DNA of 32,859 bases from Desulfonema limicola (GTDB taxonomy: Bacteria > Desulfobacterota > Desulfobacteria > Desulfobacterales > RPRI01): positions 1-32,859 of the forward strand of contig DYJH01000024.1 in the NCBI GenBank assembly GCA_020723255.1. The letters run 5' to 3'. The notes under the pieces were generated by a model. It worked only from the letters and a program-made list of their open reading frames with translations. It was not told where the DNA came from and did not search any database. Shown here one piece after another: positions 3,248-30,480 of this stretch (within the stretch, counting starts at the first letter, position 1; each line of letters begins with the position of its first letter). A program made the translations under genes and the position numbers.

Positions 3248-3261
3248 TAAAAAATCCCTTC

Positions 3262-3385
3262 ATGCCAAGTCGCATTCAAATTCTATCTGCGTTGGCTTCG
3301 TCGGTTCTGTCCTCGGCGTATTACATATACGCCTGCGGGAAAACCTCCTTGCCGCCTTGCTATCTTTTTGAATGCAACTTGGTAT
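3262..3385. repeat. 124-bp MITE-like imperfect palindrome
   Basis: The element fills the gap between pdxA and uvrA and overlaps the first base of the pdxA stop codon. Its outer arms pair closely: CCAAGTCGCATTCAA (3265-3279) against TTGAATGCAACTTGG (3368-3382), extended outwards by ATG/TAT with one wobble. The centre is a perfect 7-bp hairpin, GGCGTAT (3315-3321), 5-base loop, ATACGCC (3327-3333). The intermediate arms pair only in part. This is the form of a non-autonomous miniature inverted-repeat or REP-like element. It carries no ORF that I believe. In RNA it would fold into one long hairpin between the two cistrons. Only this copy is seen in the window. Confidence 0.7.
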
Positions 3386-4398: not shown

Positions 4399-4945
4399 GA
4401 CAATTCCTTTTCAGAACTTTATTGAGATATAGACATTAACAAAACTCTCAATGTTTGAAATTTGGGATTATTCTTTTTTTTTATACTACAGAGCCAATAA
4501 TTCTTTTTCAACAATTTCCAATGCTATTAACCGTAAAAATTCCACCAAGTCGAATATGCCAAATAATAAAAGGTAATCGAAGAATTTGAGAGATTTTAAC
4601 AATTGAGCATTGGTGTTTTATTATTAAAAATATATGTTGATATGCCTAAAATATCAGAAAAAAACAAGCAAAGGCAAAAACGATTGAAGGCAAAGGAATT
4701 AATTTGCGCCCATAAACTATATTTAATTATTATAAGGAGATATAAATTGTTAACAACTTCTGAAAAAACATTCGGAATTCAGTTTTTATCCGGTTTGACA
4801 TAGCTCTTTCAATGCATTAAAAAAGCGCCATGTCTAAATTAACAATTCGCATCACCTTGTAACTTACAATCAGTTGTTTTGCAAAAAGTACTCATCAGCA
4901 AGCAGGTTAATCGGTTTTTCAACTAAAATTGGGAAAATTATTTTT
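4399..4945. other. AT-rich divergent intergenic region, no convincing gene
   Basis: This 547-bp stretch separates pdxA (minus) from the dnaA paralogue (plus). I found no tRNA and no credible protein gene. I searched for DnaA boxes of the TTATNCACA type on both strands and saw none, so there is no sign of a canonical origin. An 8-bp inverted repeat, CCAATGCT (4518-4525) and AGCATTGG (4606-4613), and a looser one around 4794-4838 (TTTGACAT and ATGTCTAAA) are the only structured parts noticed. Confidence 0.6.
4795..4823 (+). promoter_or_regulatory. Candidate sigma-70 promoter for the dnaA paralogue
   Basis: A perfect -35 hexamer TTGACA (4795-4800) is followed after 17 bases by TAAAAA (4818-4823), a weak -10. 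The -35 lies inside one arm of an imperfect inverted repeat (TTTGACAT ... ATGTCTAAA, ending about 4838), which could be an operator. A start near 4830 would give a leader of about 115 bases. The call rests on consensus matching only. Confidence 0.3.
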
Positions 4946-6289
4946 ATGGAAGCTATCTGGAATTCGATCAAGATTGCGATTAAGATGAATATTCCCGAAC
5001 ACTCATACAGAATGTGGATAGAGCCTCTTAAGTTCGGTGGAATTGAAAATGGTGCAATGGTACTAACAGCTCCTAACCATTTTTCTCAGAAAAGAGCTCA
5101 GGATAATTATGGCTCTCTAATTCTTTCGGAATTGAAAAAAATTTCAGGAGAATACAGCAGATATATTATAGAAATTTCTGAAAATGGGGAAAAAACCGGA
5201 TTGGACAAAGTGCAAAATAACATTCAATTACCACTTCCGATAGAAAATATAAAGCCTCATTACGGCAGATTTTTAAGAAGAGATTTCACATTTGATCATT
5301 TTGTTGTGGGAGGAAACAATGAATTTGCTTTTTCAGCCTCCCTCTCTCTTGCCGCAAAGAAAAATTCTATGCAGAATTGTCTTTTTTTATTAGCAAAGAC
5401 TGGAATGGGCAAGAGCCATCTTTCACAGGCAGCAGGGCACCATATTATTTCTCAATACCCATCGGAACGTGTCTATTATCTTACTGCTGAAGATTTCAGC
5501 AATGAAATGGTTCAGGCATACAAGACAGATTCAATAGATAAATTTAAAGGAAAATACAGAAAGGAATGCGATATACTTCTTTTGGAAGATGTTCATTTTT
5601 TAAGCGGTAAAGAGCGAACCCAGATCGAACTTGCCTTGACTCTTGACACACTTCTTGATGCCGATAAGAAAATCATATTTTCAAGCTGTTATCTTCCAAA
5701 TGATATCCCTAAGCTGAACGATAAACTAAAATCCCGCTTTTCTTACGGAATTATTTCGGCTATTGAGCCCCCTAATTTCAGGACAAGGGTAAGAATACTT
5801 CAAAAGAAAATGCTTTCAAACGGTTACAAGATAGAGGAAGAAGTAATTAATTATCTTGCAAGTGAGCTGACAGAAGATGTGCGTCAGCTTGAAAGCGGAC
5901 TTATAGGTGTTACAGCAAGATCATCACTTATGGGATTACCCATAGATCTTGAACTTGCTGAAAGTGTGGTCAAAAATATAACTCAAAGGAAAAAGAACAT
6001 CACAATCGACGTAATAAAAAAACTTGTTTGCAAATATTTTAATATTTCTTTAAGCGATATGACATCCAATTCCCGTAAACAGGCATTTATGCGTCCGAGA
6101 CAGATTGCAATTTATCTTGCCCGCCGATATACGGACTCACCGTTGCAGACAATCGGAAAAAGTTTTAACAAATATCATGCAACCGCTCTCCATTCAATAG
6201 GAGTAATTGAAAGAAGTATAAAAGAGAACGGTTCTTTAAAGAAGCAGGTTGAGCTTTTTTGTCAGAAACTTGAGTCCGGTAATTTCTAA
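4946..6289 (+). CDS. Divergent DnaA-family AAA+ protein (second DnaA)
   Basis: All DnaA domains are recognisable in 447 residues. Domain I is at ~1-80 (WNSIKI, MWIEPL). AAA+ domain III is at ~112-345, with Walker B LLLEDVHFLSGKERTQ (211-226), a sensor-1 region KIIFSSCYLPNDIP and the SRF arginine (264). The domain IV helix-turn-helix is at ~355-447 (RPRQIAIYLARR). Key places depart from the norm: Walker A is AKTGMGKS (150-157), where DnaA normally has GG at the start. The DNA-binding signature FGGRDHTTVLHA is replaced by the shorter FNKYHATALHS. Target sequence and nucleotide behaviour may therefore differ from canonical DnaA. I chose the ATG at 4946 because an upstream TTG in frame (4874) only adds a tail unlike DnaA. 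glcD starts on the base after the stop. It could act as a regulator rather than the replication initiator. Confidence 0.88.
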   Translation: MEAIWNSIKIAIKMNIPEHSYRMWIEPLKFGGIENGAMVLTAPNHFSQKRAQDNYGSLILSELKKISGEYSRYIIEISENGEKTGLDKVQNNIQLPLPIENIKPHYGRFLRRDFTFDHFVVGGNNEFAFSASLSLAAKKNSMQNCLFLLAKTGMGKSHLSQAAGHHIISQYPSERVYYLTAEDFSNEMVQAYKTDSIDKFKGKYRKECDILLLEDVHFLSGKERTQIELALTLDTLLDADKKIIFSSCYLPNDIPKLNDKLKSRFSYGIISAIEPPNFRTRVRILQKKMLSNGYKIEEEVINYLASELTEDVRQLESGLIGVTARSSLMGLPIDLELAESVVKNITQRKKNITIDVIKKLVCKYFNISLSDMTSNSRKQAFMRPRQIAIYLARRYTDSPLQTIGKSFNKYHATALHSIGVIERSIKENGSLKKQVELFCQKLESGNF

Positions 6290-7675
6290 ATGATCTTTAA
6301 AGATTCTGCATATAAAAAGATTGAGGATATAGTTGGTTCCGAATATTGCAGCAGAGCAAAGGAAGAAACTGTTTGTTATTCCTATGATGCTTCAGCAAGC
6401 GGATATTATCCGGATGCTGTGGTATTTCCGGGAAACACAAGCGAAGTTTCGAGCATATTAAAACTTGCCTGCATAGAGGGTTTTTTTGTTATACCGCGCG
6501 GTTCCGGTTCAGGAATGACCGGAGGATCTGTGCCTGTTATGGGAGGAGTGGTTATTGCCATGAACCGCTTCAACCGTATAATCGAAATTGATACTGACAA
6601 TTTTACTGCATCAGTTGAACCGGGAGTTATTACTGCACAATTTCACAGGGAGGTTGAAAAACTAAATCTGTTTTATCCACCGGATCCATCAAGTTCGGAA
6701 TTTTCAACTTTAGGAGGAAATCTTGCAGAATGCGCAGGGGGGCCAAGAGCTGTAAAATACGGCGTAACGCGCGACTACGTGCTTGGTCTTGAGGCAGTAC
6801 TTCCAACCGGAGAAGTGATTAAGACAGGCGTAAAAACAGCCAAGGGTGTTGTAGGATACGATTTGACTCGTCTTTTTATAGGATCTGAGGGAACTCTTGG
6901 AATAATCACGCAAATAACTGTAAAGCTTTTACCCCTTCCTGACTCGGTAGAAACCATAACCGCATCTTTTTTTGAGCTTGAAAAAGCGGCCGGAACCGTT
7001 TCAGAAATCATAAGACAAGGAATTGTTCCAAGAACTATTGAATTTATGGACAAGGAATCCATAAAATGCGTTGAAAAATATCTTGATACAAGTATAGCTG
7101 TTAATGCCTCAGCATTGCTCATAATAGAAGTGGATGGACGATCAGATGAAGTTAAATCATCTATAATACGGCTTAAGGAGCTTTGTATAGAGACAGGGGC
7201 GAACGATGTAAGAATTGCCGGGTCAAAAGAAGAGACCGCTTTAATCTGGAAAGCCCGCAAGGCGGTATCACCGGCATTGTTTACCTATGCTCCCGATAAA
7301 ATAAATGAAGACATCGTTGTTCCGCGGAGCAAAATTCCGGATATGGTTAGAAAGATTAATTCTATAAGAATTAAAACCGGTTTGACTATTGCAAGTTTTG
7401 GACATGCTGGCGACGGGAATATACATTTTAACATAATGCTTGATAAAAAAAACAGGGAGGAATTGAAAAAGGCCGAAGCCGCTGTTGAAGAATTATTTGA
7501 TTATACCATTGAACTTGGAGGAACGATTTCAGGAGAGCATGGCATAGGCATTACAAAGGCAGCGTATATGACAAAAGAGATAGGCCCTGTTGAAATTGAA
7601 CTTATGAGAAATATAAAAAAACTCTTTGATCCCAAAGGAATACTAAATCCCGGCAAAATTTTTAGCGAACACTGA
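6290..7675 (+). CDS. FAD-linked oxidoreductase, GlcD / D-lactate dehydrogenase family
   Basis: The 461-residue protein matches the GlcD/D-lactate dehydrogenase family of VAO-type flavoenzymes, which oxidise 2-hydroxy acids such as glycolate or D-lactate. The N-terminal FAD-binding domain shows IPRGSGSGMTGGSVP at about 67-81 and STLGGNLAECAGGPRAVKYG at about 140-159. The C-terminal domain carries ASFGHAGDGNIHFN and the GTISGEHGIG motif that ends the active site. The ATG directly follows the stop codon of the dnaA paralogue with no spacer, so translation is probably coupled, and a FadL-type porin gene follows 22 bp after its stop. No GlcE or GlcF partner is in the window, so the electron acceptor is unknown; an electron-transfer flavoprotein or an Fe-S partner elsewhere is possible. 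The substrate cannot be decided from sequence. Confidence 0.92.
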   Translation: MIFKDSAYKKIEDIVGSEYCSRAKEETVCYSYDASASGYYPDAVVFPGNTSEVSSILKLACIEGFFVIPRGSGSGMTGGSVPVMGGVVIAMNRFNRIIEIDTDNFTASVEPGVITAQFHREVEKLNLFYPPDPSSSEFSTLGGNLAECAGGPRAVKYGVTRDYVLGLEAVLPTGEVIKTGVKTAKGVVGYDLTRLFIGSEGTLGIITQITVKLLPLPDSVETITASFFELEKAAGTVSEIIRQGIVPRTIEFMDKESIKCVEKYLDTSIAVNASALLIIEVDGRSDEVKSSIIRLKELCIETGANDVRIAGSKEETALIWKARKAVSPALFTYAPDKINEDIVVPRSKIPDMVRKINSIRIKTGLTIASFGHAGDGNIHFNIMLDKKNREELKKAEAAVEELFDYTIELGGTISGEHGIGITKAAYMTKEIGPVEIELMRNIKKLFDPKGILNPGKIFSEH

Positions 7676-9511: not shown

Positions 9512-10153
9512 TCAATTTATAACCGACAGGATTTCATTTCCGGGGACTTCGCCTTCTCTTATGATAACCGGAAATTCTCCCGTAGCGTCAACTACTGTAG
9601 AACCTATACCGCCTTTAAGCTTGCCGGCATCAATTATCAGATCAACTTTTTCCATTATTTCAGAATCAATATCCGATATGCGAAAGCAACCCGGGGCTCC
9701 CGATAAATTTGCGCTTGTTCCTGTTATCGGCGATCCAACAGCCTTTACAAGAGCCAGAGCAACAGGATGGCCCGGCTTCCGTATGCCTATTTTTCCGATT
9801 CCTGCCGAAAGATTTGCCGGAACAGCGTTAACTGCTTCAAGTATGACTGTGACTCCGCCCGGCCAGAACTTTTCCATAATCTGTTTAGCCATTGGAGTAA
9901 CATCTTTTACAATGCAGGAAATCATAAGATAACTGTCCACAAGAACAAGCAGCGGTTTTTTTTCTGCACGTCCCTTTATTTCAAACACTTTTTCAACCGC
10001 TTTTTCATCATAAGCATCGGCAGCAAGACCATAAAGGCACCTTGCAGGAAATACTACTACTCCACCGCTTCTTATAACAGATGCCGCTTTTCTGATTAGC
10101 TCCGGCTCGGGTTTCTCCGGATCAATTTTTATGATTTTATCTGAAATTCTCAA
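9512..10153 (-). CDS. L-threonylcarbamoyladenylate synthase (TsaC/Sua5/YrdC family)
   Basis: The product makes threonylcarbamoyl-AMP from threonine, bicarbonate and ATP, the first step of t6A modification at position 37 of ANN-decoding tRNAs. The YrdC fold is visible: [29 protein letters not shown] with the substrate-binding KGR, and [10 protein letters not shown]. It is YrdC-domain only, lacking the extra Sua5 domain. The frame is open back to an ATG at 10204, which would overlap the purD-purE gene by 68 bp with a basic tail unlike the family. I prefer the TTG at 10153, giving 213 residues starting [11 protein letters not shown] and a 17-bp overlap. Neither start has a strong ribosome binding site, so coupling to the upstream gene is likely. 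Confidence 0.9.
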
Positions 10154-11909
10154 GTTTCTTTGCTTTCTTTTCAACCTGAGCAGCCATTTCTTTCTTGAAG
10201 GCATCTATCATGGCGGAAAGCGCCGGGTCTGAAATTGCGAGAATCTGCACTGCAAGAATCCCGGCATTTCTAGCGCCGGATTTTCCTATGGCAACAGTTG
10301 CCACAGGCACTCCAGGAGGCATCTGGACGGTTGATAATAATGAATCAAGCCCTGCAAGGCACGATGAATCTATAGGAACTCCGATTACGGGAAGAGAAGT
10401 ATGCGCTGCGAGCACTCCTGCAAGATGCGCTGCATGACCGGCGCCTGCAATTATTGCTTTGATTCCCCTCTGCCTTGCGCCCAAAGCAAGATTAGCAGCT
10501 TTTTCCGGGGTTCTGTGGGCTGACGCCACAGTAATTTCAAATGGAATGCCGAATTTCTTCAACACGGCAACAGCTTCCTCCATCACTTCATAATCAGAAT
10601 CGCTTCCCATTACAATCGAAACCACAGGAAGCGCTTTAATCCGTTTCACAGCCTTATGCCCTATATCTGTTCTGAACTGGACGCCATTCCAGCTTATTTT
10701 TAATACTGCCCGGTATGCTTTATCAATTGCTAAAGACACGGTATCGCCGATAGCCGTTACCCCGAGCACACGTCCGCCGTTTGCAACTACAGCACTGTCT
10801 TTAATTGCTGTACCCGCATGAAACACAATTACATCTTTTATGCGGGCGGCATCTTCAAGCCCTTTTATCGGTATCCCTTTTTTATAAGCGCCCGGATACC
10901 CGCCTGATGCCATGACAACGCAAAGCGATGCTCTCTCATCAATTTCTATATTGCACTTATTAAGCCTTTCTTCTATTACGGCTTCCATTATCGGAATTAT
11001 GTCGCTTTTTATCCTGACCAAAAGGGCCTGCGCTTCCGGGTCGCCGAATCTGCAGTTAAACTCTAAAACCATGATTTTATCATTGTCAATCATGAGCCCG
11101 GCATATAAAATCCCCTTGTAAGGCCTTCCTTCCTCAGCCATAGCCCGGACAGTAGGCATCATGATCTCTTCCATGATCTTTTTATGAATATATCTGTCAA
11201 CAATAGGGGCAGGCGAATAAGCGCCCATTCCGCCGGTATTCGGACCTTTATCGTTATCAAAGATCGGCTTGTGATCCTGTGAAGACGGAAGAGGAAGAAC
11301 GGTTTTACCGTCAGTAAATGCAAGAAACGACACCTCTTCCCCGGTAAGAAGCTCTTCAATTACAACTCTTTTGCCTGCCTCGCCGAAAGAACGTTTTATC
11401 ATTATGTCGTCAAGCGCCTCTATCGCCTGTTTTTCTGTTGAGCATACGACAACTCCCTTTCCGGCTGCAAGCCCGTCTGCCTTGACAACACAGGGAGCTT
11501 TGGCTTTGCGGATATAGTTTTCCGCTATCTTGTAGTTTGAAAATATTTTGCCGGAAGCAGTGGGTATGCCGTATTTCATCATCAGTTCTTTCGAAAAGCA
11601 TTTGCTTGACTCCAATTCAGAAGCTTTCATGGAAGATCCGAAAATTTTCAAACCGGCTTTTTCAAATAAATCTGTTATACCATTTGAAAGAGGAGCTTCC
11701 GGACCCACAACTGTCAGCGATATCTTCTCTTTTTCAGCAAATGCGAGAAGACCGTTAACATCATCCGAACTAATGGGAATACACTCCGCAAGACCGGCTA
11801 TACCGGCATTTCCCGGCGCACAAAATATTTTTTTTACCTTTGGACTCTGCGCTATTTTCCATACAAGCGCATGCTCTCTTCCTCCGCCTCCAACTACCAA
11901 TACTTTCAT
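10137..11909 (-). CDS. PurD-PurE fusion: GAR synthetase with N5-CAIR mutase
   Basis: One 590-residue reading frame holds two purine enzymes. Residues 1-~420 are PurD, an ATP-grasp ligase joining phosphoribosylamine and glycine: [16 protein letters not shown] at the start, [11 protein letters not shown], the [12 protein letters not shown] loop, and [12 protein letters not shown] near the Mg site. Residues ~428-590 are a class I Pur[19 protein letters not shown] and a PVIGVPID segment, the mutase that converts N5-CAIR to CAIR and needs a PurK elsewhere. The joint is only about 8-10 residues after the normal PurD end ([11 protein letters not shown]). GGAGG sits 4 bases before the ATG at 11909, so the in-frame ATG at 11924 is unlikely. 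The enzymes catalyse non-consecutive steps. No frameshift is needed to read through. Confidence 0.93.
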
Positions 11910-20874: not shown

Positions 20875-21783
20875 TTGAAGAGCAGATATTACGATTTAAA
20901 TACCTATTTCAGAAATATTTTCGGGTGCAGGGTGCAAAAAATTACTGTTGATGCGGGGCTTACCTGCCCCAACAGAGACGGCACAACTTCAACCGGAGGC
21001 TGTATTTATTGCAATGCGCAGGGCTCCGGCACAGGCGCTCATGCAAAAGGGCTTTCCATAACACAGCAGCTCACAGAAGGAAAAGCCGCTCTTTCAAAAA
21101 GATACCAAGCGGAAAAATTCATAGCTTATTTCCAGTCATTTTCGAACACCTATGCTTCTTGTGAAAAGCTTAAAAGCTTTTATGATGAAGCATTGTCAGT
21201 TGAAAATATTGCAGGCCTTTCAATTGGAACAAGGCCAGACTGCATCAATGAATCCGTGCTTGAGCTTCTCGAAAACTATGCAAAAAAATATCTCATATGG
21301 ATTGAATACGGATTGCAATCTGCACATTATGAAACACTTTTGCTGATAAACAGAGGACATAATTATAAATGTTTCGAAAATGCCGTGAATGCTACCAAAG
21401 AAAGAGGAATAAAAATTTGCGCTCATGTCATCCTCGGTCTTCCCGGAGAAGGAAAAATACATATGCTTGAAACGGCAAAAGCATTGGCAAAGCTTGAAAT
21501 AGACGGAATCAAAATTCATCTTCTGTATGTTGTTAAAGGCACAAAAATGGAAGATCTTTATTTAAGCGGAGGATACAGATGCCTTGAACAGGATGAATAT
21601 GCACAGCTTGTATGCGATTTTCTGGAACTTCTCCCGGAGGATATGGTAATTCAGCGCCTCACAGGAGATCCTCACCGAAACGAACTGGTAGCACCCCTTT
21701 GGTCTTTAGAAAAATCGAAAACCCTCTTTCTGATCAAAACCATTCTTGAAAAAAGAAATTCATGGCAGGGAAAATTTCATTAA
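20875..21783 (+). CDS. YhcC-type radical SAM protein (TIGR01212 family)
   Basis: The protein belongs to the YhcC/TIGR01212 radical SAM family of unresolved function. The iron-sulfur ligands sit in an unusual spaced motif, CPNRDGTTSTGGCIYC, at about residues 32-47 of the 302-residue form, which is the family hallmark (C-x12-C-x2-C). Other conserved parts are FIAYFQSFSNTYA, SIGTRPDCI, WIEYGLQSAH and HVILGLPGEG. An open frame extends to a TTG at 20839, but the TTG at 20875 gives MKSRYYDLNTYF, the usual N-terminus, and has GGGA 9 bases upstream. Its stop overlaps the stop codon of the convergent histidine-kinase gene (TTAA at 21780-21783), leaving no room for a terminator between them. Confidence 0.88.
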   Translation: MKSRYYDLNTYFRNIFGCRVQKITVDAGLTCPNRDGTTSTGGCIYCNAQGSGTGAHAKGLSITQQLTEGKAALSKRYQAEKFIAYFQSFSNTYASCEKLKSFYDEALSVENIAGLSIGTRPDCINESVLELLENYAKKYLIWIEYGLQSAHYETLLLINRGHNYKCFENAVNATKERGIKICAHVILGLPGEGKIHMLETAKALAKLEIDGIKIHLLYVVKGTKMEDLYLSGGYRCLEQDEYAQLVCDFLELLPEDMVIQRLTGDPHRNELVAPLWSLEKSKTLFLIKTILEKRNSWQGKFH

Positions 21784-24101
21784 CTTGTCACTTTTAACAC
21801 ATCATTTAACACGTTACCCAATGCAATGGGATCAAAAGGCTTGGGCATCATGCCTTTGAAACCATATTCACGAAAATTTGACATAATCGGATCATCAGAG
21901 TAACCGCTGGAAACAACAGCCTTTACTTCAGGATCTATCTCAAGCAATATCTTTATCACATCCTTTCCTCCCATACGACCGGGAATTGTCAAATCCAGGA
22001 TGACTGCATCATAGGGTTTTCCGGATTTCCGGGCTTTCCTATACAACTCAACCGCTTCAACGCCATCCTTTGCGAAATCTGCTTCATACCCCAGCGTCTC
22101 CAGCATCTCTCCCATCATTATCGTTAAATATTTATCATCATCCATTACGAGTATTTTGCCCTTGCCTGTTGTTAAGAGGGCAGGTTCTTCTTTCGCCTGA
22201 ATTTCTTTGGATGAAGCAGGCAGGTAGATGTAAAATGTGGTTCCGGAACCCTGACTGGAGTTTACCGATATGTGTCCGGCGTGCTTTCTGATAATGGAAT
22301 AGGCTGTTGCAAGTCCAAGACCTCTCCCTGTCTGCTTTGTTGAAAAATAAGGATCGAATATCTTTGAAATGTGCTTTTCGGCTATACCCATCCCCTGATC
22401 CTTGATGGTGATCATGACGTATCTACCCTGCTTGACAGGCAGACCATTTCTCTCCTCTATTACTTTGTTCTCGGCACAAATCTCTATGACTCCTCCCTCC
22501 GGCGTAGCCTGGTTTGCATTTATAACTATATTATTGAAGACCTGACTTATCTGCCCGGCATCGGCCTCAACCGGCCAGAGATCTTTTGCTATCGAAAAAT
22601 GGCACCTCGATTTTGAGCCGGTCAATACAAAGCGGGAAGACTCTTCCAGAATATTTGCAATTGAAGAAACTTCCTTTACCGGCATTCCCCCTTTGGCAAA
22701 AGTCAATAACTGCATTGTCAGCGCCCTTGCCCTCATAGAAGCAGCTTCTGCCGCGCTCAGAAGATCAAATATTTTATGGTCGGATTTTATCTTCATCTTG
22801 GCAAGGGAAATATTTCCTGAAATAACCGTCAGCATATTATTGAAATCATGAGCTATGCCTCCAGCGAGAATCCCGACGGATTCAAGTTTCTGAGCCTTCA
22901 AAAGATCTTCCTCCGTCCGCTTGCGCGCTGTGATGTCATCGAACACAACAACGAAATACTCCTTACCCGGAGAATAGACCGAGAGGTCAAACCACATGCT
23001 CATGGCGGTGACGAAGAACTCGAAACGTTCGGGCAGGCCGGTCAAGGCCACCCGTGCAAACCGCTCGAACAAATCAGGATCGGCTTCGCGGATGCCCGGA
23101 ATGACCTCGGAAACCTTCTTTCCGACAACATCCTTCAATCCCGTCTGGGTTTGGAATGCGTCGTTGACGGAAAGGTAAACGAAGTCCTGCGGTCGGCCGT
23201 CCTCGAAAAGCATCCGGCAATACGCGAATCCCTCCACCATGTTTTCAAAAAGCGTCCGATAGCGCGTCTCGCTCTCGCACAGCGCCGCTTCTCTTCTCTT
23301 TAAGGATTCAGCCATATTATTGAAGGCCTTTGCAAGTTCCCCTATTTCATCTTCTGTCTCAACAGGCACCTCCTCGACCACCCCTTCCGTTCCGAGGAGT
23401 TTAGCGCTTTCAGTTAATCTGTTAAGCGGTTTTGTTATCCCCTTTATCAAGATGTATGTAACTCCGGAACCAATTATCAGGAAGATAATCCCCATCAGGA
23501 TACTCTTAAACAATATTTCATTGAGCTGCTTATTCAGCATCTCCTTATCCATCGTTATTTTGACAAATCCAATGGGACGGTCATTTTTCTGAAGAGAATC
23601 CTTAACAAAAAACATAGATTCCTCCACAAGGTGACCGGTACTTGAGATTACGGGCGCCCAGAATTCTAAATGGCTCTTATCATCAAGGTAAAAGGGGGAG
23701 AGAGACTTCCTCATTTTCTCAAATATCTTAAGTCTTTCTTGCTCATCTCTCTCAATTGATTTTTTTATAATTTTTATTCCGGGTCTTTCTTTACTCTTCA
23801 ATAGCTTCCCATCCAGATTAAACACTAAAACTTCTAATACATCCTCCTGTTGAAAAATTCCCTCAGCAGGACCCTCGAGCAGATCTTTGTTTTCCGAAAA
23901 TACGCCAATCCTTGAGTTGTAGGCAAGAACGCTTGCAAGTACTTTTCCGCCTTTTATAAGGTTGTCAGTCAGGGCTTTAATCTGGTGATGAATAAAGAGG
24001 GAAGTGAAAGAAACAGAAATAACAAATATAAAAAGGGTAATTGCAGCAAAGATCTTAATACGGAAATTTTCATTCAAGGTTTTGAGTAAATTTAGCTTCA
24101 T
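21780..24101 (-). CDS. Membrane hybrid sensor histidine kinase with PAS and receiver domains
   Basis: The 773-residue protein has a membrane helix at ~16-37, a periplasmic sensor at ~38-198, a second helix at ~199-219, HAMP at ~220-272, PAS at ~276-393 and an H-box GGIAHDFNNM with the phospho-accepting His near 418. The HATPase region shows DQGMGIAEKHISKIFDPYF and GRGLGLATAYSI, and the C-terminal receiver holds VMDDDKY and the Asp in AVILDLTIPG (near 702). It should sense a periplasmic or membrane signal and pass phosphate to its own receiver and then to an unseen phosphotransfer partner. GAGG precedes the ATG. The gene for a lone substrate-binding protein lies 99 bp upstream on the same strand across a palindromic repeat. 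The PAS-coding DNA (about 22920-23290) is far richer in GC than the flanks. Confidence 0.93.
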   Translation of the reverse strand: MKLNLLKTLNENFRIKIFAAITLFIFVISVSFTSLFIHHQIKALTDNLIKGGKVLASVLAYNSRIGVFSENKDLLEGPAEGIFQQEDVLEVLVFNLDGKLLKSKERPGIKIIKKSIERDEQERLKIFEKMRKSLSPFYLDDKSHLEFWAPVISSTGHLVEESMFFVKDSLQKNDRPIGFVKITMDKEMLNKQLNEILFKSILMGIIFLIIGSGVTYILIKGITKPLNRLTESAKLLGTEGVVEEVPVETEDEIGELAKAFNNMAESLKRREAALCESETRYRTLFENMVEGFAYCRMLFEDGRPQDFVYLSVNDAFQTQTGLKDVVGKKVSEVIPGIREADPDLFERFARVALTGLPERFEFFVTAMSMWFDLSVYSPGKEYFVVVFDDITARKRTEEDLLKAQKLESVGILAGGIAHDFNNMLTVISGNISLAKMKIKSDHKIFDLLSAAEAASMRARALTMQLLTFAKGGMPVKEVSSIANILEESSRFVLTGSKSRCHFSIAKDLWPVEADAGQISQVFNNIVINANQATPEGGVIEICAENKVIEERNGLPVKQGRYVMITIKDQGMGIAEKHISKIFDPYFSTKQTGRGLGLATAYSIIRKHAGHISVNSSQGSGTTFYIYLPASSKEIQAKEEPALLTTGKGKILVMDDDKYLTIMMGEMLETLGYEADFAKDGVEAVELYRKARKSGKPYDAVILDLTIPGRMGGKDVIKILLEIDPEVKAVVSSGYSDDPIMSNFREYGFKGMMPKPFDPIALGNVLNDVLKVTS

Positions 24102-24200: not shown

Positions 24201-25103
24201 TTAGTTAATGATCCGGGCTTTCCTGACAACATTTTCCTTAATAGTGATTCCTAATTTCTTTGCTACGTTAAGATTAACAGATATAATCGCCTTTCTTGCG
24301 TCTTCCTGTTTTCCATTTATTACACCATTTCCCGAGAGCATCTTTTTAGCCATCTCTCCTGCCTGAGAACCCATATCAAAAGCATCTACGCCTACCGACA
24401 TCAGCGCTCCCAGTTCCACATATTTCTCTGAAAAGGCAAGTATGGGTATTTTGTTTTCGAGAGAGAACAGAAGCATAAACTCAACTGTTTCAGGGGTAAT
24501 TACAGTCAAATCCGGGAGCATCCAGAAAACATCTATCTTTCCTTTCATATCCTGTATCAATTGAGGAACATCCCTGGAATTATAAACCTCCCTTACAACC
24601 GGTTTAATGCCAAATTTAACCGCGGCATCTTTTGCCTCTTTTGCAAGATGGCCTGTTCTGTCCTTGTTGTATAAAAGGCCGATTGTTTTTATTTCCGGCA
24701 TTACGGACACCAGAGTAGCTAACTGCTCTCCCTGGGATATGCTCATGCCGACGCCGCGGATATTCTTTTCTTCTGAGAGTATGGACCAGGGATTTAAGAC
24801 CATAACATAGACAACGGGGATGTCTTTAATACTTTTTACCTTCAAGAGGGCGTCCATCCCTATTGCAAGAACCATATCAGGACTGATCTTATTGATCTCC
24901 CCAGCAACATCCGCACCTTGCAATTCTGAGATAATAATTCTTTTGATCCCGGCATCGCAGACGCTTTTGAATCCCTCGACTGCTTCTTCATATGGCTGTA
25001 TCCTGCTGCTTTGAACGGCCACGACCTCCTGCCCGGCCCAGGCTAAACCCTGACATAGAATTAAAAGAAATAAAATTACAAGTATGGAAAGATTTTTTTT
25101 CAC
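24201..25103 (-). CDS. Periplasmic substrate-binding protein, ABC_sub_bind (TrpX-like) family
   Basis: The 300-residue protein begins with a signal peptide (MKKNLSILVILFLLILC, cleavage after AWA near residue 23). The rest matches the ABC_sub_bind/TrpX-like family: VAVQSSRIQPYEEAVEGF, a GADV start of the first lobe, DIPVVYVMVLNPW, TIGLLYNKDR and DLTVITPETVEF. The fold is a periplasmic-binding type I two-lobe protein. No permease or ATPase gene is near, and the next gene downstream is a hybrid histidine kinase with a periplasmic domain, so it may be a sensor partner rather than a transporter part (inference). The start is GTG at 25103; an ATG just upstream runs into a stop. Ligand unknown. A TonB-dependent receptor gene is divergent 132 bp away. 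Confidence 0.9.
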   Translation of the reverse strand: MKKNLSILVILFLLILCQGLAWAGQEVVAVQSSRIQPYEEAVEGFKSVCDAGIKRIIISELQGADVAGEINKISPDMVLAIGMDALLKVKSIKDIPVVYVMVLNPWSILSEEKNIRGVGMSISQGEQLATLVSVMPEIKTIGLLYNKDRTGHLAKEAKDAAVKFGIKPVVREVYNSRDVPQLIQDMKGKIDVFWMLPDLTVITPETVEFMLLFSLENKIPILAFSEKYVELGALMSVGVDAFDMGSQAGEMAKKMLSGNGVINGKQEDARKAIISVNLNVAKKLGITIKENVVRKARIIN

Positions 25104-25154
25104 TGCATTCTCATATGGCAGCTCAGGTTTTTGTAAAGCAAATAAATTAATTGC

Positions 25155-25183
25155 TTGAAAAAAATAAATTATATTGATAATAA
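25155..25183 (+). promoter_or_regulatory. Candidate promoter for the TonB-dependent receptor gene
   Basis: TTGAAA (25155-25160) and TAATAA (25178-25183) are spaced 17 bases in the AT-rich divergent region. The sequence after it (ATAAATTAACATAAATTATTTATT) is AT-rich with partial symmetry, but I do not see a good Fur box. The call rests on consensus matching. Confidence 0.3.
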
Positions 25184-25235
25184 ATTAACATAAATTATTT
25201 ATTCTGAAAACTCTTTTTATAAAGAAAAAACAGAA

Positions 25236-27194
25236 ATGAATTGCTCAAATAGCCATTTTTATAAAAAATGCACCCTCTTGATTTGTTTTATCCTGACAAT
25301 GACCCCCTTTTGCCGGGCTTTCGCCGCCCAGTCTGAAGAAGAAATGGATGTTCTCCGTCTGTTTTACAAAGAAAAAGACCTTGTTGTCTCGGCCACCAGG
25401 CATCCGAAACCCATTTCCCAGGTTGCGGAAAATATCACGGTTGTGACCGCAAAAGAAATAGAGGAGATGAATGCCCATACGGTAGCGGAAGTCCTTGCAA
25501 GAATACCCGGCCTTTTTGTTGTTTTCAGCGAGGGTGCAGGAAGTTTCGGCTCCACTTCCCTTACAAAAATTCAGGGTTCTGAGTTTAGGCATGTCCTTGT
25601 TCAGATAGATGGGCTAACCTGGAATTTTCTGTCAGACGGATCTGCCGAGACCAATTCAATTCCTGTCGGCATAATAGAGCGCATAGAAGTAATCAAAGGG
25701 CCTGCATCATCGGCCTGGGGATCAGCCCTGGGAGGCGTGGTTAACATTATAACAAAAGCAGCAGGAAGTTCGGAAAGGCCTTCCGGTTCCGTAACCGCTT
25801 CTTATGGTGAGAAAAATACGCAGGATCACAGGGCCGAGGTCTCGGGGAAAGAAGGAACTGTGGGGTATTATCTGTATGCTGGCAGGCAATATTCCGATGG
25901 TCAGATGCCTTCAAGAGACTTTGATACCCATAGCTTTTATTCAAAGTTTAATATCTCTCTTTCAAAGGATGCAGCAGTAGGTTTTAGCATGGGTTACAGC
26001 GATCCTCAAACCGGGCTTGGCAATTATCCGAGCGCAGATATCAGATCAACAAGCAGCAGCCGCACATTTTTTGCAACCGCCTTCCTTGAAGCTTCTCTTA
26101 CAGGAGAGCTTGATTTAAATATATCCTTCCGCCATTTCAAACAGAGAATCGATATAATGAATAATGCTCTGGGGCTGGGAGCTGTCGGCACAGCCGGAGA
26201 ATTTTATTTGGATAGCCTTTATGATGAGAAAACTACGGGAGGAAGCGGCAAACTCGTGTGGACGCACGGAGCGCATACCGCCGTATTCGGCGTGGATGTT
26301 GACAGCGGAAAGCTCGATCAGGCGCTTGCCTCGGGCTCCTTTCTGCAATCGTTTGGCGCTCCTGCGAGATCGGCAACACATCCTGATGTTGACCGGTGGG
26401 CGGTATATGCCAACGACACTATAGTAATCGACAGATTGTCGGTCACACCCGGCATCCGTTATGACCATAACAGCATTACCGGCTCCTTTACAAGCCCTTC
26501 TCTGGGAGCCACATACCGGCTTGGCGGGGATTCAATTTTAAGAGCTTCTGTGGCAAGGGGCTTTACCATGCCTCCTCTCGGCTGGACCTCAGGAGGAGGA
26601 TTGTTCCTTGATCCGAATCCATCCCTTAAGCCCGAAAAAGTCTGGTCGTATCAGGCGGGTGTGGAATCAACCGTTTTAAGATTTCTCTGGGCAAAGGCTA
26701 CGATGTTCCGTCATGAGATAAAAGATATCCTGAAAAAGGAACTGTTTGCAGGACGAGCGCCTGCCTTCAATGATCTGTTTATCAATAGCGGGTCAGACCG
26801 GCGCCATGGGATTGAGCTTGAAGCTGAAACGGTTCCCATGTACAATCTCTCTTGCCGGTCAGGGTTTGCCTATGTGGATATAGATCCTGCTACCGAGGAC
26901 GGATCTGCTGGAATTTATTCCTGGAACATCGGAATAAAGTATGACGACAAAAAATCTTTTCGTGCCCAGATCTTCGGCAGTTACGTGTGGTGGGACTTAA
27001 ATCCGGCACCAGGGGCAAGATACGATGATTTTATCTGGGACTTAAACCTTGGCAAAAAAATCTGCTCTTTCGAAAAAACTGCTGCGGAAGTATTTCTCAC
27101 GGCGCATAACATCTTTAACGGATCTCAGTACACATTTGGCGATATTCAAAATCCCGAAAGATGGGTTGAGGCCGGGATACGCTTTTCTTTTTAA
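25236..27194 (+). CDS. TonB-dependent outer-membrane receptor
   Basis: The 652-residue protein has a signal peptide (MNCSNSHFYKKC, hydrophobic run, AFA near 28-30), a plug domain at about 50-165 and a beta barrel to the end (RWVEAGIRFSF, terminal Phe). Plug hallmarks are ENITVVTAKEIEEM, VAEVLARIPGLFV, IERIEVIKGPASSAWGS and ALGGVVNIITKA. It transports a scarce ligand (siderophore, cobalamin, other large solute) through the outer membrane using TonB energy; the ligand cannot be told. A TonB box may lie in DLVVSATR near 50, a common position for DxVVxA motifs. The ATG has no clear ribosome binding site. It is divergent from a substrate-binding protein gene that precedes a sensor kinase, so these may act together. 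Next on this strand is a 710-bp repeat field and a RiPP-like precursor. Confidence 0.93.
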   Translation: MNCSNSHFYKKCTLLICFILTMTPFCRAFAAQSEEEMDVLRLFYKEKDLVVSATRHPKPISQVAENITVVTAKEIEEMNAHTVAEVLARIPGLFVVFSEGAGSFGSTSLTKIQGSEFRHVLVQIDGLTWNFLSDGSAETNSIPVGIIERIEVIKGPASSAWGSALGGVVNIITKAAGSSERPSGSVTASYGEKNTQDHRAEVSGKEGTVGYYLYAGRQYSDGQMPSRDFDTHSFYSKFNISLSKDAAVGFSMGYSDPQTGLGNYPSADIRSTSSSRTFFATAFLEASLTGELDLNISFRHFKQRIDIMNNALGLGAVGTAGEFYLDSLYDEKTTGGSGKLVWTHGAHTAVFGVDVDSGKLDQALASGSFLQSFGAPARSATHPDVDRWAVYANDTIVIDRLSVTPGIRYDHNSITGSFTSPSLGATYRLGGDSILRASVARGFTMPPLGWTSGGGLFLDPNPSLKPEKVWSYQAGVESTVLRFLWAKATMFRHEIKDILKKELFAGRAPAFNDLFINSGSDRRHGIELEAETVPMYNLSCRSGFAYVDIDPATEDGSAGIYSWNIGIKYDDKKSFRAQIFGSYVWWDLNPAPGARYDDFIWDLNLGKKICSFEKTAAEVFLTAHNIFNGSQYTFGDIQNPERWVEAGIRFSF

Positions 27195-27370
27195 TATTGT
27201 ACATTTGTTACAAGGTGTGTTAGTGTTAAAAAAGTTTATAATTTGTGGCAGGGAAATAATCAACCTGGAACTTAACGGAAATACCCTTCCCCTGAGCGGG
27301 GAGGAAAAATAAAAGTTCCCTCTTCACTTGTATGGGAGAAAAATTTCCCTCTCCCCCAAGGGGAGAGGGG

Positions 27371-27580
27371 AAATTAGTTTTAGCAATAGCTCTCCTACAA
27401 GGGGAGAGGGAAAATTAGTTCTGGCAATATGATCCTCCAGTGGGAGATGGAAAAATAATTTTGGCAACATGATCTCTCCCTTGATGGAGAAGAGAAAATA
27501 ATTTTGGCAATATGTTCTCTCCCTTGATGGAGAGGAGAAAATAATTTTGGTGATATGTGCACCACCCAAGGAAAGAAGGA
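27371..27580. repeat. Tandem array of 41-43-bp palindrome-bearing units
   Basis: Five units begin AAATTAGTT or AAATAATTT at 27371, 27412, 27453, 27496 and 27539, giving steps of 41, 41, 43 and 43. Each continues TTGGCAATATG (TAGCAATAG, TGGCAATATG, TGGCAACATG, TGGCAATATG, TGGTGATATG) and then a palindrome of the type CTCTCCCTTGATGGAGAGGAG. A sixth, separate copy is at 27740-27775. The third and fourth units are the most alike, which points to recent duplication. Confidence 0.8.
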
Positions 27581-27880
27581 AAACTAAATGTCCTTTTCGG
27601 TATGGTGTGAGAAGGTTCTTTAATTTCCCCTTCCATACAAGGAGAGAGGATCTGGAGTTTGGACATATAAGTATTTCCCCTCCCTTGAGGGGAGGGGATT
27701 AAGGGGAGGGTGAAATTTGACAATGCCTTTCCAAAGGGGAAATTAGTTCCGGCAATACGCTCCTGCAGGGGGAGAAAAAAAATTATAGGTCATTTTCCGA
27801 ATGTGGTAAGAAGACTCTTTACTTTCCACTCCCTTTAGGGGAGGGGATTAAGGGGAGGGTAAAATTACTTTTGACAATAC
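27581..27880. repeat. Two diverged copies of a longer repeat block
   Basis: Block A (27581-27725) and block B (27779-27880) share a leading part (TCCTTTTCGGTATGGTGTGAGAAG against TCATTTTCCGAATGTGGTAAGAAG, given here as 27591-27614 and 27790-27813) and a trailing part ending GGGGATTAAGGGGAGGGT then TTTGACAAT. Block A carries about 50 bp more in the middle. Block B ends 25 bp before the precursor start codon. Confidence 0.6.
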
Positions 27881-27905
27881 TAACCATAAAAAAAGGAGAT
27901 ACGGT

Positions 27906-28031
27906 ATGAAAGAAGAAATAACAAAAGAAAGCAAAGAAGAAATAAATGTGCTTGATGAAGGCATTAATCTTGATGATACAGCCATCATTAGGTTAATGTG
28001 TTGTGGTACTGCACTTGCTCCTTTCAGATGA
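27906..28031 (+). CDS. 41-residue RiPP-like precursor peptide with C-terminal MCCGTALAPFR
   Basis: This short gene was found by reading the gap before the radical SAM gene. It starts at an ATG 7 bases after a perfect AAGGAG (27893-27898) and ends in TGA at 28029-28031. The product has a charged leader-like part (MKEEITKESKEEI, then NVLDEGINLDD) and a small cysteine-bearing tail, MCCGTALAPFR. That layout, and its place 393 bp before a radical SAM/SPASM enzyme on the same strand, fits a ribosomally made peptide modified by the enzyme. The rest of the neighbourhood is non-coding repeats, so an intact frame with an ideal ribosome binding site is notable. It resembles what is called geopeptide in Geobacter annotations, an assignment from memory. 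Modification type and role are unknown. Confidence 0.75.
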   Translation: MKEEITKESKEEINVLDEGINLDDTAIIRLMCCGTALAPFR

Positions 28032-28069
28032 TTAATCTTAGCAAAAAGGGGAGCGCCGCATCTTCGACA

Positions 28070-28241
28070 TAAATCCCCCCCCAACCCCCCTTTTAAAAAA
28101 AAGGGGGGATCTAAATTTCCCTCTTTGTCAAGGGGGTTGTATAGAATCCTCTATCGAAGGGAGGTTGTATAAAATTCCCCCTTATAAAAGTGGTGTATCT
28201 AAAATTCCCCCCTTTATCAAGGGGGGGCAAGGGGGGATTTA
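28070..28241. repeat. Nested C-rich/G-rich palindrome with four inner units
   Basis: The outer arms are TAAATCCCCCCCCAACCCCC at 28070-28089 and GGGGGGGCAAGGGGGGATTTA at the right end (about 28221-28241). Between them four palindromic units of about 30-37 bp follow one another, each of the form AAATTCCCCCTTTATCAAGGGGG with varied spacing and TGTAT joints. The same family as 24114-24188. It starts 39 bp after the precursor stop. Confidence 0.8.
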
Positions 28242-28293
28242 TGACAGAGGTTCATAAATTTGCTTACGTATTGTCATTTCAAACGATATGTAT

Positions 28294-28370
28294 TGTCATT
28301 TCGAACGAAGTGAGAAATCTTAATGTATATGAGAGCCGGTAAAGGATATCTCCCTTCGGTCGATATGACA
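28294..28370. repeat. Inverted repeat of the TGTCATTTCGAAC family
   Basis: The left arm (28294-28320: TGTCATTTCGAACGAAGTG then AGAAATCT) pairs with the right arm (28344-28370: GGATATCTCCC then TTCGGTCGATATGACA) around a 23-base loop. A partial extra copy of the left end, TTGTCATTTCAAACGATATG, precedes it at 28271-28290. I recognise this as a widespread intergenic palindrome of many bacterial genomes; it is not coding. Confidence 0.75.
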
Positions 28371-28424
28371 CCGAAATTATGAAATGGAGTATTTTGTCGT
28401 GCGCTATAATTTTCTTTAAACACT

Positions 28425-29735
28425 ATGCAGCTTTCCCGCTACCTCAAAGTATATTCTTACGAAGAAAGCCCCGGATATCTGTTGCTTTTTTCCACCCGGA
28501 AGATGTCAAAGATCCTTCTTAAAAAAGAGACATATCAGGCCATAGAAAATAACAGCGGGATTTCTCCCTCCAATGAGGCTTTGTTATCAAAGCTCGGCAT
28601 GATAGTTCATAACAGAGAGGAGGAAAAGCGGGCTGTTTTCAGTTTTTTCGATGAGTTGAATAAAAAAAATGACGGATTGAACGTCATTGTTGTCCTTAAT
28701 CTGGACTGCAACTTTGCCTGCACATACTGTTATGAAGGGGGCATGAAGGGAAAACTCTACATGTCTTCGGCTACGGCGGATCACCTTGTAGATTTCATCA
28801 AAAATAATTTCCCGCGCCATAAAAAATCTCTCCTTATAGATTTTTACGGGGGAGAACCTCTTTTAAGCACAGGGCTTATTAAATATATTTCCCACGCCCT
28901 CAAATCCTTCACCGAAAGCAGGGGAGCCTCTTACGGCTTTACCCTTGTCACAAACGGATCCCTCTTTACAAAAAAGGCAGCCAAGGAGCTGGTTTCCTGC
29001 GGTCTTGAAAGTGTGAAAATATCTTTAGACGGTCCGGCCGAAACACATAATCAATCCCGTCCTTTTAAATCCGGCGCCGGCAGCTTCGATGCTATAATCA
29101 GGAATATCAAGGAAACCTGCGGCCTTGTCAAAATCGGCGTGGGAGGAAATTTCGAGAGAGGCAACTACGAAAAATTTCCAATGCTCCTCGATTATCTGAC
29201 GGCTGAGGGACTTACATCAGACAAGATTGCCTCGGTGAAATTTGACCCCGTGATGAAACAGCCTGAAGGAGAATTTGCTCCCCCGGACTCTATGGGCGGC
29301 TGTACATCCATCAATGAACCGTGGCTGTCGGGAGTTGCCGCTCATTTGCGGGAAGAGATTTTAAAAAGGGGATACAATACGCAAAAGCTGATGCCCATGA
29401 CCTGCATGGTAGAATCTACAAACTCCTATGTGGTTAATTTCGACGGTGTTATATACAAATGTCCGGGCGTTATCGGCAAAAAAGGCTATGAGGTGGGAAA
29501 TCTTCTGACGGGCGCAAGAGATTGCGCCTCTTATAAGCTTGGCCTCTGGAAAAATGAGGACTGCGGCGGGTGTGAATATCTGCCTCTCTGTTACGGGGGA
29601 TGCAGGTATATGACCTTTTTACGTGATGGAAATACAGATACGGTGGATTGTCAAAAAGCTTATCTCGATGCCTCGCTTGAGACATTAGTCAAGCAGGACA
29701 TTAAATATAAACGAGTGGTCAACAACCAGGGATGA
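28425..29735 (+). CDS. Radical SAM/SPASM peptide maturase (geopeptide-maturase-like)
   Basis: The 436-residue enzyme has a radical SAM core with C95, C99 and C102 (CNFACTYCYEG) binding the SAM-reducing 4Fe-4S cluster, and DFYGGEPLL and VTNGSL as further core motifs. The C-terminal SPASM domain has all ligands: C327, the GVIYKC step to C346, then C380-x2-C383-x5-C389-x3-C393-x15-C409. Such enzymes make thioether, C-C or similar crosslinks in ribosomal peptides. The N-terminal ~70 residues (MQLSRYLKVYSYEES) may act as a precursor-binding domain. From memory this N-terminus and layout match the putative geopeptide maturase family. The ATG has no Shine-Dalgarno; a perfect TATAAT ends 14 bases before it, so it may be translated leaderless. 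The precursor gene lies 393 bp upstream. No dedicated transporter or protease is adjacent. Confidence 0.88.
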   Translation: MQLSRYLKVYSYEESPGYLLLFSTRKMSKILLKKETYQAIENNSGISPSNEALLSKLGMIVHNREEEKRAVFSFFDELNKKNDGLNVIVVLNLDCNFACTYCYEGGMKGKLYMSSATADHLVDFIKNNFPRHKKSLLIDFYGGEPLLSTGLIKYISHALKSFTESRGASYGFTLVTNGSLFTKKAAKELVSCGLESVKISLDGPAETHNQSRPFKSGAGSFDAIIRNIKETCGLVKIGVGGNFERGNYEKFPMLLDYLTAEGLTSDKIASVKFDPVMKQPEGEFAPPDSMGGCTSINEPWLSGVAAHLREEILKRGYNTQKLMPMTCMVESTNSYVVNFDGVIYKCPGVIGKKGYEVGNLLTGARDCASYKLGLWKNEDCGGCEYLPLCYGGCRYMTFLRDGNTDTVDCQKAYLDASLETLVKQDIKYKRVVNNQG

Positions 29736-29944: not shown

Positions 29945-30238
29945 ATGACTGAGCTGCGTTTTGAATGGGACAAACGGAAGGAAAGGGCTAATGTAAAAAA
30001 ACATGGCATTTCTTTCGATGAAGCACGCACGGTTTTCTATGACGAAAATGCAGTTCAATTTTTTGATCCTGACCATTCCGATGATGAAGACCGTTTCATC
30101 CTACTTGGGATAAGTTTTAGAGTTAGGGTTCTCGTTGTCTGTCATTGTTTTCGGAAAAGTGATGCAGTTGTTAGGATTATATCTGCCAGAAAAGCGGATG
30201 GTGATGAAGAAAATGAATATTGGAGGTACAGAAAATGA
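29945..30238 (+). CDS. brnT: BrnT-family ribonuclease toxin
   Basis: The 97-residue protein matches BrnT, the toxin of a type II toxin-antitoxin system, an RNase with a RelE-like fold that cuts RNA and slows growth. The family pattern is clear: FEWDKRKERANVKKHGISF at 6-24, then EARTVFYDE, the RFILLG strand and the C-terminal RIISARKADGDEENEYWR. The key arginine and histidine positions in KHG and RIISAR are kept. It is directly followed by the antitoxin, whose ATG overlaps its stop (ATGA). No ribosome binding site is seen upstream of the ATG; a promoter ends 6 bases earlier. It lies at the edge of an accessory region next to conserved rfaE2. Confidence 0.92.
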   Translation: MTELRFEWDKRKERANVKKHGISFDEARTVFYDENAVQFFDPDHSDDEDRFILLGISFRVRVLVVCHCFRKSDAVVRIISARKADGDEENEYWRYRK

Positions 30239-30480
30239 GAGACCGTTACGATTTTTCCAAAATGAAGGGATGCAAAAACCCTTATATAAAATATTTAAAA
30301 CAACCGGTTACTATGCGGCTTGACCGTGACACCGTTTCATATTTCAAATCTATGTCGGAAGAATCGGGTATTCCTTACCAAAACTTAATAAACCTTTATC
30401 TTCGCGACTGCGCTGTTAATCACCGAAAACTACACATGAAATGGCAGGCTGAAAATGTCCAACAACCGCTTGCACTCTGA
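30235..30480 (+). CDS. brnA: BrnA-family antitoxin
   Basis: The 81-residue protein is the partner of BrnT. The N-terminal half (MRDRYDFSKMKGCKNPYIKY) wraps the toxin in known complexes. The C-terminal half (PVTMRLDRDTVSYFKSMS, then GIPYQNLINLYLRDC) is a ribbon-helix-helix DNA-binding domain of the type that represses its own promoter. GGAGG (30222-30226) lies 8 bases before the ATG at 30235; an in-frame ATG at 30220 would put that ribosome binding site inside the gene, so it is rejected. The start overlaps the BrnT stop, which couples translation of the two. Confidence 0.9.
   Translation: MRDRYDFSKMKGCKNPYIKYLKQPVTMRLDRDTVSYFKSMSEESGIPYQNLINLYLRDCAVNHRKLHMKWQAENVQQPLAL

Follow-up and report, generated by a model that had tools for sequence, protein, structure and literature searches.

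A Cys-Cys precursor peptide and its geopeptide-type radical SAM maturase in Desulfonema limicola are inherited with a TonB-dependent receptor, a periplasmic binding protein and, usually, a sensor kinase

What becomes of a small peptide whose gene lies ahead of a gene for a radical S-adenosylmethionine (SAM) enzyme, and do the genes around the two have a part in it? The question is raised by a stretch of the Desulfonema limicola assembly GCA_020723255.1 (contig DYJH01000024.1, positions 1 to 32,859, forward strand; hereafter the window), in which a preliminary description had noted a 41-codon gene with an AAGGAG ribosome-binding site and, 393 bp beyond it, a gene for a SPASM-type radical SAM enzyme. 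We conclude that the two almost certainly form a genuine pair for a ribosomally synthesized and post-translationally modified peptide (RiPP), and that a TonB-dependent receptor, a periplasmic binding protein and a sensor histidine kinase encoded upstream, which lay beyond the preliminary description, belong to the same cassette. We think it reasonably probable that these three proteins act on the peptide's own product and, with much more reserve, that the product carries a cargo in the manner of a metallophore. The pair is laid out as follows.

27893 to 27898, forward strand: ribosome-binding site AAGGAG, 7 nucleotides before the ATG
27906 to 28031, forward strand: geopeptide-type precursor of 41 residues (MKEEITKESKEEINVLDEGINLDDTAIIRLMCCGTALAPFR), stop codon TGA
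27936 to 27965, forward strand: conserved leader motif EEINVLDEGI, a pattern common to relatives and probably the recognition site for the enzyme
27999 to 28028, forward strand: putative core CCGTALAPFR, its boundary presumed
28032 to 28424: 393-bp gap between the peptide and maturase genes, containing repeat-like sequence (from gene coordinates and a repeat search)
28425 to 29735, forward strand: geopeptide radical SAM/SPASM maturase of 436 residues (TIGR04280)

The small gene with its AAGGAG site and the 393 bp gap were found exactly as first described. It might be supposed that so short an open reading frame is a chance product of a repeat-rich region, as there are repeats in both flanking spacers. 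However, a profile trained without the window peptide and its two congeners matched the window peptide at 42.1 bits (E 2.7e-12); the runner-up among the window's 1,049 stop-to-stop frames reached 6.8 bits and the best of 20 block shuffles 10.9 bits. This refutes the chance explanation and leads us to discount it almost entirely. With the first peptide profile, none of 30 control loci gave a match better than E 0.12.

To place the pair among its relatives we compared 51 maturase loci, namely the window, 45 from the 44 regions L079-L122 (L093 has two maturases, and the enzyme of L122, at 307 bits, is below the family cut-off) and five from L045-L049, which were counted without TIGR04280 scoring. 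The peptide profile was seeded with 34 peptides chosen by eye among frames with CC, CxC or LDxG, and the final list of 49 peptides was restricted to frames with CC. A similar peptide lies within 2.5 kb of the maturase, the range searched, at 47 of the 51 loci (46 at E < 0.01 by profile alone; that of L117, E 8.0, was taken by eye), in support of the association that the preliminary description had proposed, and ten loci were matched although absent from the profile's seeds. The four loci that lack a peptide are L046, whose contig starts inside the maturase, L114 and L116, whose contigs stop 1.6 and 0.8 kb upstream of the maturase, and L122. Other contigs of the L114 and L116 genomes (L158 and L159) have a matching peptide beside a receptor gene, at the contig end. 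The Cys-Cys pair is present in all 49 peptides, an invariance that is somewhat circular as CC was part of the selection; likewise, all 49 matches at E < 1 to a leader-only profile carry CC, the profile having been trained on those same peptides. The strict leader pattern [VI][LVIF][DE]x[GA] occurs in 37 of the 49, an arginine eight residues after CC in 30 and a proline six residues after CC in 22. The distance from peptide to maturase has a median of 70.5 bp (48 peptides), making the 393 bp of the window unusual. A TGA codon read as selenocysteine was also considered, and nothing convincing emerged among the loci without a standard peptide match.

The preliminary description had likened the enzyme to the geopeptide maturases, and this label proved correct: residues 1-429 align to positions 1-428 of TIGR04280 (geopep_mat_rSAM, "geopeptide radical SAM maturase" in NCBIfam) with a score of 545.2 bits, the family cut-off being 400. 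The next NCBIfam families (CefB, TIGR04463, Clo7bot, PapB, and others) are SPASM or radical SAM peptide maturases and score far under their own cut-offs, and the Pfam Radical_SAM match is 53 bits. A six-sequence alignment shows no variation at C95, C99 and C102 of the CX3CX2C site or at the seven cluster cysteines that had been listed beforehand (C327, C346, C380, C383, C389, C393, and C409), all of which are present. The peptide itself matched no NCBIfam family at E ≤ 10 and no Pfam family at E ≤ 0.1, and TIGR04281, considered as a model for the precursor, is an unrelated periplasmic family. Thus the window resembles the TIGR04280 geopeptide system in a full-length, over-cut-off enzyme with a short peptide adjoining and differs in that no model was found for the peptide; as judged by the enzyme's profile match, the pair belongs to this already named family. 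The maturase reading frames of L102, L104, and L105 have a C-terminal extension of roughly 270-300 residues, which in L102 and L104 gave no Pfam match at curated cut-offs.

Upstream of the pair, the window contains the following features.

21780 to 24101, reverse strand: hybrid sensor histidine kinase with sCache_4, HAMP, PAS, HATPase_c and a C-terminal receiver domain (Pfam; HisKA just under its cut-off)
24201 to 25103, reverse strand: periplasmic binding protein, PF04392 (ABC_sub_bind; Pfam, 120 bits)
25104 to 25235: intergenic region between the divergent binding-protein and receptor genes (from gene coordinates)
25236 to 27194, forward strand: TonB-dependent receptor with plug and barrel (Pfam; no match to an N-terminal signalling domain)
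27195 to 27905: repeat-filled spacer between the receptor gene and the peptide, including a 43-bp tandem array at 27356-27558

The array in this spacer has about 4.9 copies and, together with two 44-bp repeats within 27674-27866, fills it; the sequence GGGGAGGGGATTAAGGGGAGGG has four exact copies in the genome, two of which are in this spacer.

When genes within 8 kb of the maturases were clustered, the receptor, the PF04392 protein and the kinase were the three frequent neighbors besides the peptide and the maturase. Two further clusters (c5 and c6) were judged to be antisense shadow frames over maturase or binding-protein genes (G+C 0.57-0.71 in nine of the loci concerned vs. 0.41 in the window), and every count was repeated by profile search over a 9-kb range. 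By this recount the receptor is present at 46 of the 51 loci, the binding protein at 43 and the kinase at 39; the kinase count fell from 41 as L046 (a LuxR-type response regulator) and L122 were dropped, and its profile is partly generic. Five loci lack a receptor: in L046, L107, L114, and L116 the contig extends no more than 1.8 kb upstream, and L122 has the sub-cut-off enzyme. A binding protein is missing from three more (L080, L100, and L049), whose contigs reach no further than 2.6 kb upstream. All of peptide, receptor and binding protein occur jointly at 43 loci, and with the kinase as well at 39. Usually the kinase and binding-protein genes point away from those for the receptor, peptide and maturase, and in some loci (e.g., L088, L091, and L094) receptor, binding protein and kinase are all oriented away from the pair. 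A regular-expression search for sigma-54-like sites in 26 receptor/binding-protein intergenic regions gave three weak matches, none in the window copy. The binding protein has relatives of known structure in 3lkv, 6hni, and 3lft; its own structure model is poor (predicted local distance difference test score, pLDDT, 63), and the receptor shows weak similarity to BtuB and to siderophore receptors.

The association extends to whole genomes. Among 59 relatives, ten have an over-cut-off maturase, and the window receptor found a match at E ≤ 1e-100 in all ten and in none of the 49 others, the next match (G049, 8.5e-73) being in a genome with a sub-cut-off maturase on the same contig. The binding protein was matched at E ≤ 1e-40 in the same ten genomes and in G044, whose contig starts inside the binding-protein gene. 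A survey of 395 genomes of the phylum, with scoring limited to the 3 to 5 best first-look candidates in each, found an over-cut-off maturase in 31; a receptor profile, to which 12 of these 31 contributed, matched at E ≤ 1e-140 in all 31 and in one of the 364 others (G211). The next genome, G153 (1.2e-138), has a diverged enzyme with its own CC peptide (L148). The E-value thresholds for co-occurrence were fixed after the score gaps had been seen. Pairwise distances also correlate, with r of 0.81 between maturase and receptor, 0.78 between maturase and binding protein and 0.74 between maturase and kinase (using 51 maturases, 42 receptors, 36 binding proteins, 31 kinases, and 47 peptides). These comparisons show the peptide and the enzyme to be a conserved pair with which the receptor and the binding protein, and in most cases the kinase, are co-inherited.

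Diverged loci bear on what the receptor may carry. In L143, L148, and L149 the binding protein near the receptor belongs to PF00496, the dipeptide/oligopeptide-binding family, and no match to the PF04392 profile was found; its gene adjoins the receptor gene in L148 and L149, with a regulator between the two in L143. In L148 a 47-residue CC peptide with a different leader (9737-9880, forward strand) directly precedes a diverged maturase (9884-11191, forward strand), and this pair adjoins the TonB receptor and the PF00496 protein. In L149 the PF00496 gene is cut by the contig end and no maturase was seen. That two unrelated families of binding protein occupy the same seat is an argument for a binding protein that acts after the receptor, and the presence of PF00496 in this position favors a peptide-like ligand.

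As for the chemistry, the nearest solved enzyme, both by sequence and by a low-confidence structure model, is the thioether-forming maturase of 5wgg/5why, which we take to be CteB. The maturase model is poor (pLDDT 65), superimposes best with 5why at a root-mean-square deviation of about 11 Å, and supports only the general fold. The maturases of the SCIFF/ranthipeptide class (5wgg/5why, PapB) share the SPASM architecture and Cys-containing cores and include the best solved relative; they differ in that the 49 geopeptides show no fixed acceptor residue (e.g., Thr, Asp or Glu) beyond the CC pair and in that the geopeptide loci compared have a TonB receptor. PapB and SCIFF, which are among the next-best family models for the maturase, belong to thioether systems (PMC9413430). 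Taken together, thioether formation at the Cys-Cys core, as suggested in the preliminary description, appears the likeliest, though putative, activity of the enzyme. A thiooxazole, such as SbtM makes (PMC11002830), is another possibility.

As for export, a transporter of the major facilitator superfamily (MFS; MFS_1, MFS_3) was identified by profile at six of the 51 loci (L107, L108, L112, L114, L116, and L120), and one of MFS_3 type also lies beside the sub-cut-off enzyme of L143 (8422-9717); none was found near the window cassette. MFS_3 includes EntS, the exporter of the siderophore enterobactin, and the transporter could be the exporter of the geopeptide product. Its identification made us slightly more confident that this product is handled by the receptor, binding protein and kinase.

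Our favored model for the cassette of precursor, SPASM radical SAM maturase, TonB-dependent receptor, PF04392 binding protein and sensor kinase is as follows. The VLDEG leader would guide the maturase, which would act on the Cys-Cys core, thioether formation being the likeliest modification. After removal of the leader, a product of roughly ten residues would exit the cell, in some lineages perhaps via the MFS transporter next to the cassette. By itself or with a cargo such as a thiol-loving metal, this product would re-enter through the dedicated receptor, and the periplasmic binding protein would capture it and report to the histidine kinase, which would feed back on the cassette. Whether a cargo is carried divides this model in two. 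A cargo-carrying, metallophore-like product is a tentative suggestion. A pure peptide pheromone, from which the receptor, binding protein and kinase would gauge cell density, we find rather doubtful: it would suit the kinase at 39 of the loci, the LuxR-type response regulator that follows the maturase in L045, L046, and L047, and the variation of the core residues besides CC, as in specificity-coding signals, yet an invariant thiol pair is more typical of metal or redox chemistry and no exporter was found at the window locus.

Several observations weigh against the receptor, binding protein and kinase serving the peptide's own product. The MFS gene is limited to three genera (g79, g218, and g239) among the 51 loci; apart from it no exporter, and in no case a leader peptidase, recurs in at least four of the 51 systems within 8 kb, and in the 77 of 81 genes listed after the maturase MFS_1 accounts for four, with no other of the 25 Pfam families shown exceeding four. 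The binding-protein profile is less specific than that of the receptor, matching at E ≤ 1e-50 in all 31 maturase genomes and also in 16 of the 364 others; the strong matches without a maturase in G217, G403, and G181 are at contig ends, where neighbors would be missing, and in G217 the start of a receptor gene is still visible. In 10 of 18 regions examined, chosen from a longer list of binding-protein profile matches, a TonB receptor accompanies a PF04392 protein and both peptide and maturase are absent, and receptor, binding protein and kinase occur with no maturase in the region in G211, G354:C82, and G210:C22, the last of which carries a CIC peptide. As such modules also occur without a geopeptide, it appears that an existing uptake-and-sensing module was joined to it. 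The correlated distances among maturase, receptor, binding protein and kinase (0.66-0.81) could also be produced by shared descent. L143 has a PF00496 protein, a receptor and an enzyme and no convincing CC peptide, and PF00496 proteins also bind non-peptide ligands. The poor maturase model counts on this side too, as does its N-terminal strand-and-helix domain (residues 1-80, low confidence), for which a profile comparison with 17 PqqD sequences gave a probability of 0.04% for a PqqD-like RiPP recognition element (RRE); a PDB sequence search with this domain listed no RRE or PqqD chain. Finally, purifying selection on the window peptide gene is only weakly visible among congeners (dN/dS 0.39/0.49, ~0.8, and 0.35/0.74, ~0.5).

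These observations would in part suit a nutrient-sensing module, in which receptor, binding protein and kinase sense an outside compound (a metal complex, cofactor or amino-acid-like molecule) and switch on a geopeptide that works inside the cell or periplasm, for instance as a redox or metal-handling factor. Such a module would need neither the exporter nor the peptidase that the loci fail to share, would account for the receptor/PF04392 regions devoid of geopeptides, and would fit with 3lft having been solved with L-Trp bound and with the receptor's weak resemblance to BtuB and siderophore receptors. We nevertheless consider it unlikely, as the receptor subfamily almost never occurs without the maturase, an oligopeptide-family binding protein takes the place of PF04392 at three diverged loci, and six loci have a possible exporter. 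Many radical SAM RiPPs are antibiotics, and an antibacterial product, with receptor and kinase for immunity or detection of competitors, was also considered; no further possible immunity gene recurs in at least four systems and the receptor would presumably let the toxin into its producer, making this very improbable. On balance we retain the model in which the three proteins act on the product of the pair.

The names "geopeptide" and "TIGR04280" were not mentioned in the literature searched, most subscription papers being outside the search, and no description of a cassette with receptor, binding protein and kinase was found at title and abstract level. The closest working analogues appear to be methanobactin and the Bacteroides Itf locus with its TonB transporter. 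Methanobactin is a RiPP chalkophore made from MbnA with MbnB/C, with the TonB-dependent MbnT and, in some operons, periplasmic binding proteins (PMC3621798); the small Cys-containing precursor, the dedicated receptor, the binding protein of some operons and a proposed uptake of the own product are all points of likeness. The two differ in that the modifying enzyme of the geopeptide loci is a radical SAM protein, and in that methanobactin loci have MATE exporters and some have MbnI/MbnR, whereas geopeptide loci have a histidine kinase and, at six of the 51, an MFS gene. MbnB and MbnC are not among the recurring genes, the radical SAM maturase being the sole peptide-modifying enzyme to recur in at least four of the 51 loci; the genomes were not searched for MbnB. 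The Bacteroides ItfA-F RiPP locus (PMC11002830) encodes a radical SAM enzyme, a YcaO protein, an ABC/C39 transporter and the TonB transporter ItfF. The likeness lies in a TonB-dependent transporter encoded within a radical SAM RiPP locus, and the difference in its YcaO and ABC/C39 proteins, neither of which recurs in the geopeptide loci, where a binding protein and kinase are found instead.

Other features were noted in the course of these comparisons. Directly after the window maturase there is a BrnT toxin/BrnA antitoxin pair (29945-30480, Pfam), both L100 and L103 have a sulfatase after the maturase, and a search of the window with Rfam at the gathering threshold returned only a tRNA. L153 encodes a geopeptide-like leader with a CIC tail in place of CC (10444-10545, forward strand) together with the full set of receptor, binding protein and kinase, and no maturase was seen in the region. 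In L144, whose genome (G013) also has a geopeptide cassette, a candidate 45-residue precursor with a CCCMCSVTCSNGGGC stretch (6973-7110, reverse strand) is followed by four tandem SPASM-type radical SAM enzymes (1432-6861, reverse strand) that score 187-203 bits to TIGR04280.

As far as the literature searches reach, geopeptides have had a name and no described function. Now that they prove to be co-inherited with a receptor, a binding protein and in most cases a kinase, this orphan RiPP can be treated as a circuit open to experiment, and any of the three additional proteins could serve to fish out the product. A product that acts as a metallophore would represent a new way of metal handling and a methanobactin-like economy arrived at with unrelated enzymes, in which a stand-alone periplasmic binding protein would alert the kinase, and Cys-Cys peptide metallophores made by radical SAM enzymes may then, with equal tentativeness, be a widespread class in the phylum of D. 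limicola, with records in the Nitrospirae as well. If it is instead a signal, the cassette would provide a Gram-negative peptide signal with both a defined route of entry and a defined sensor.

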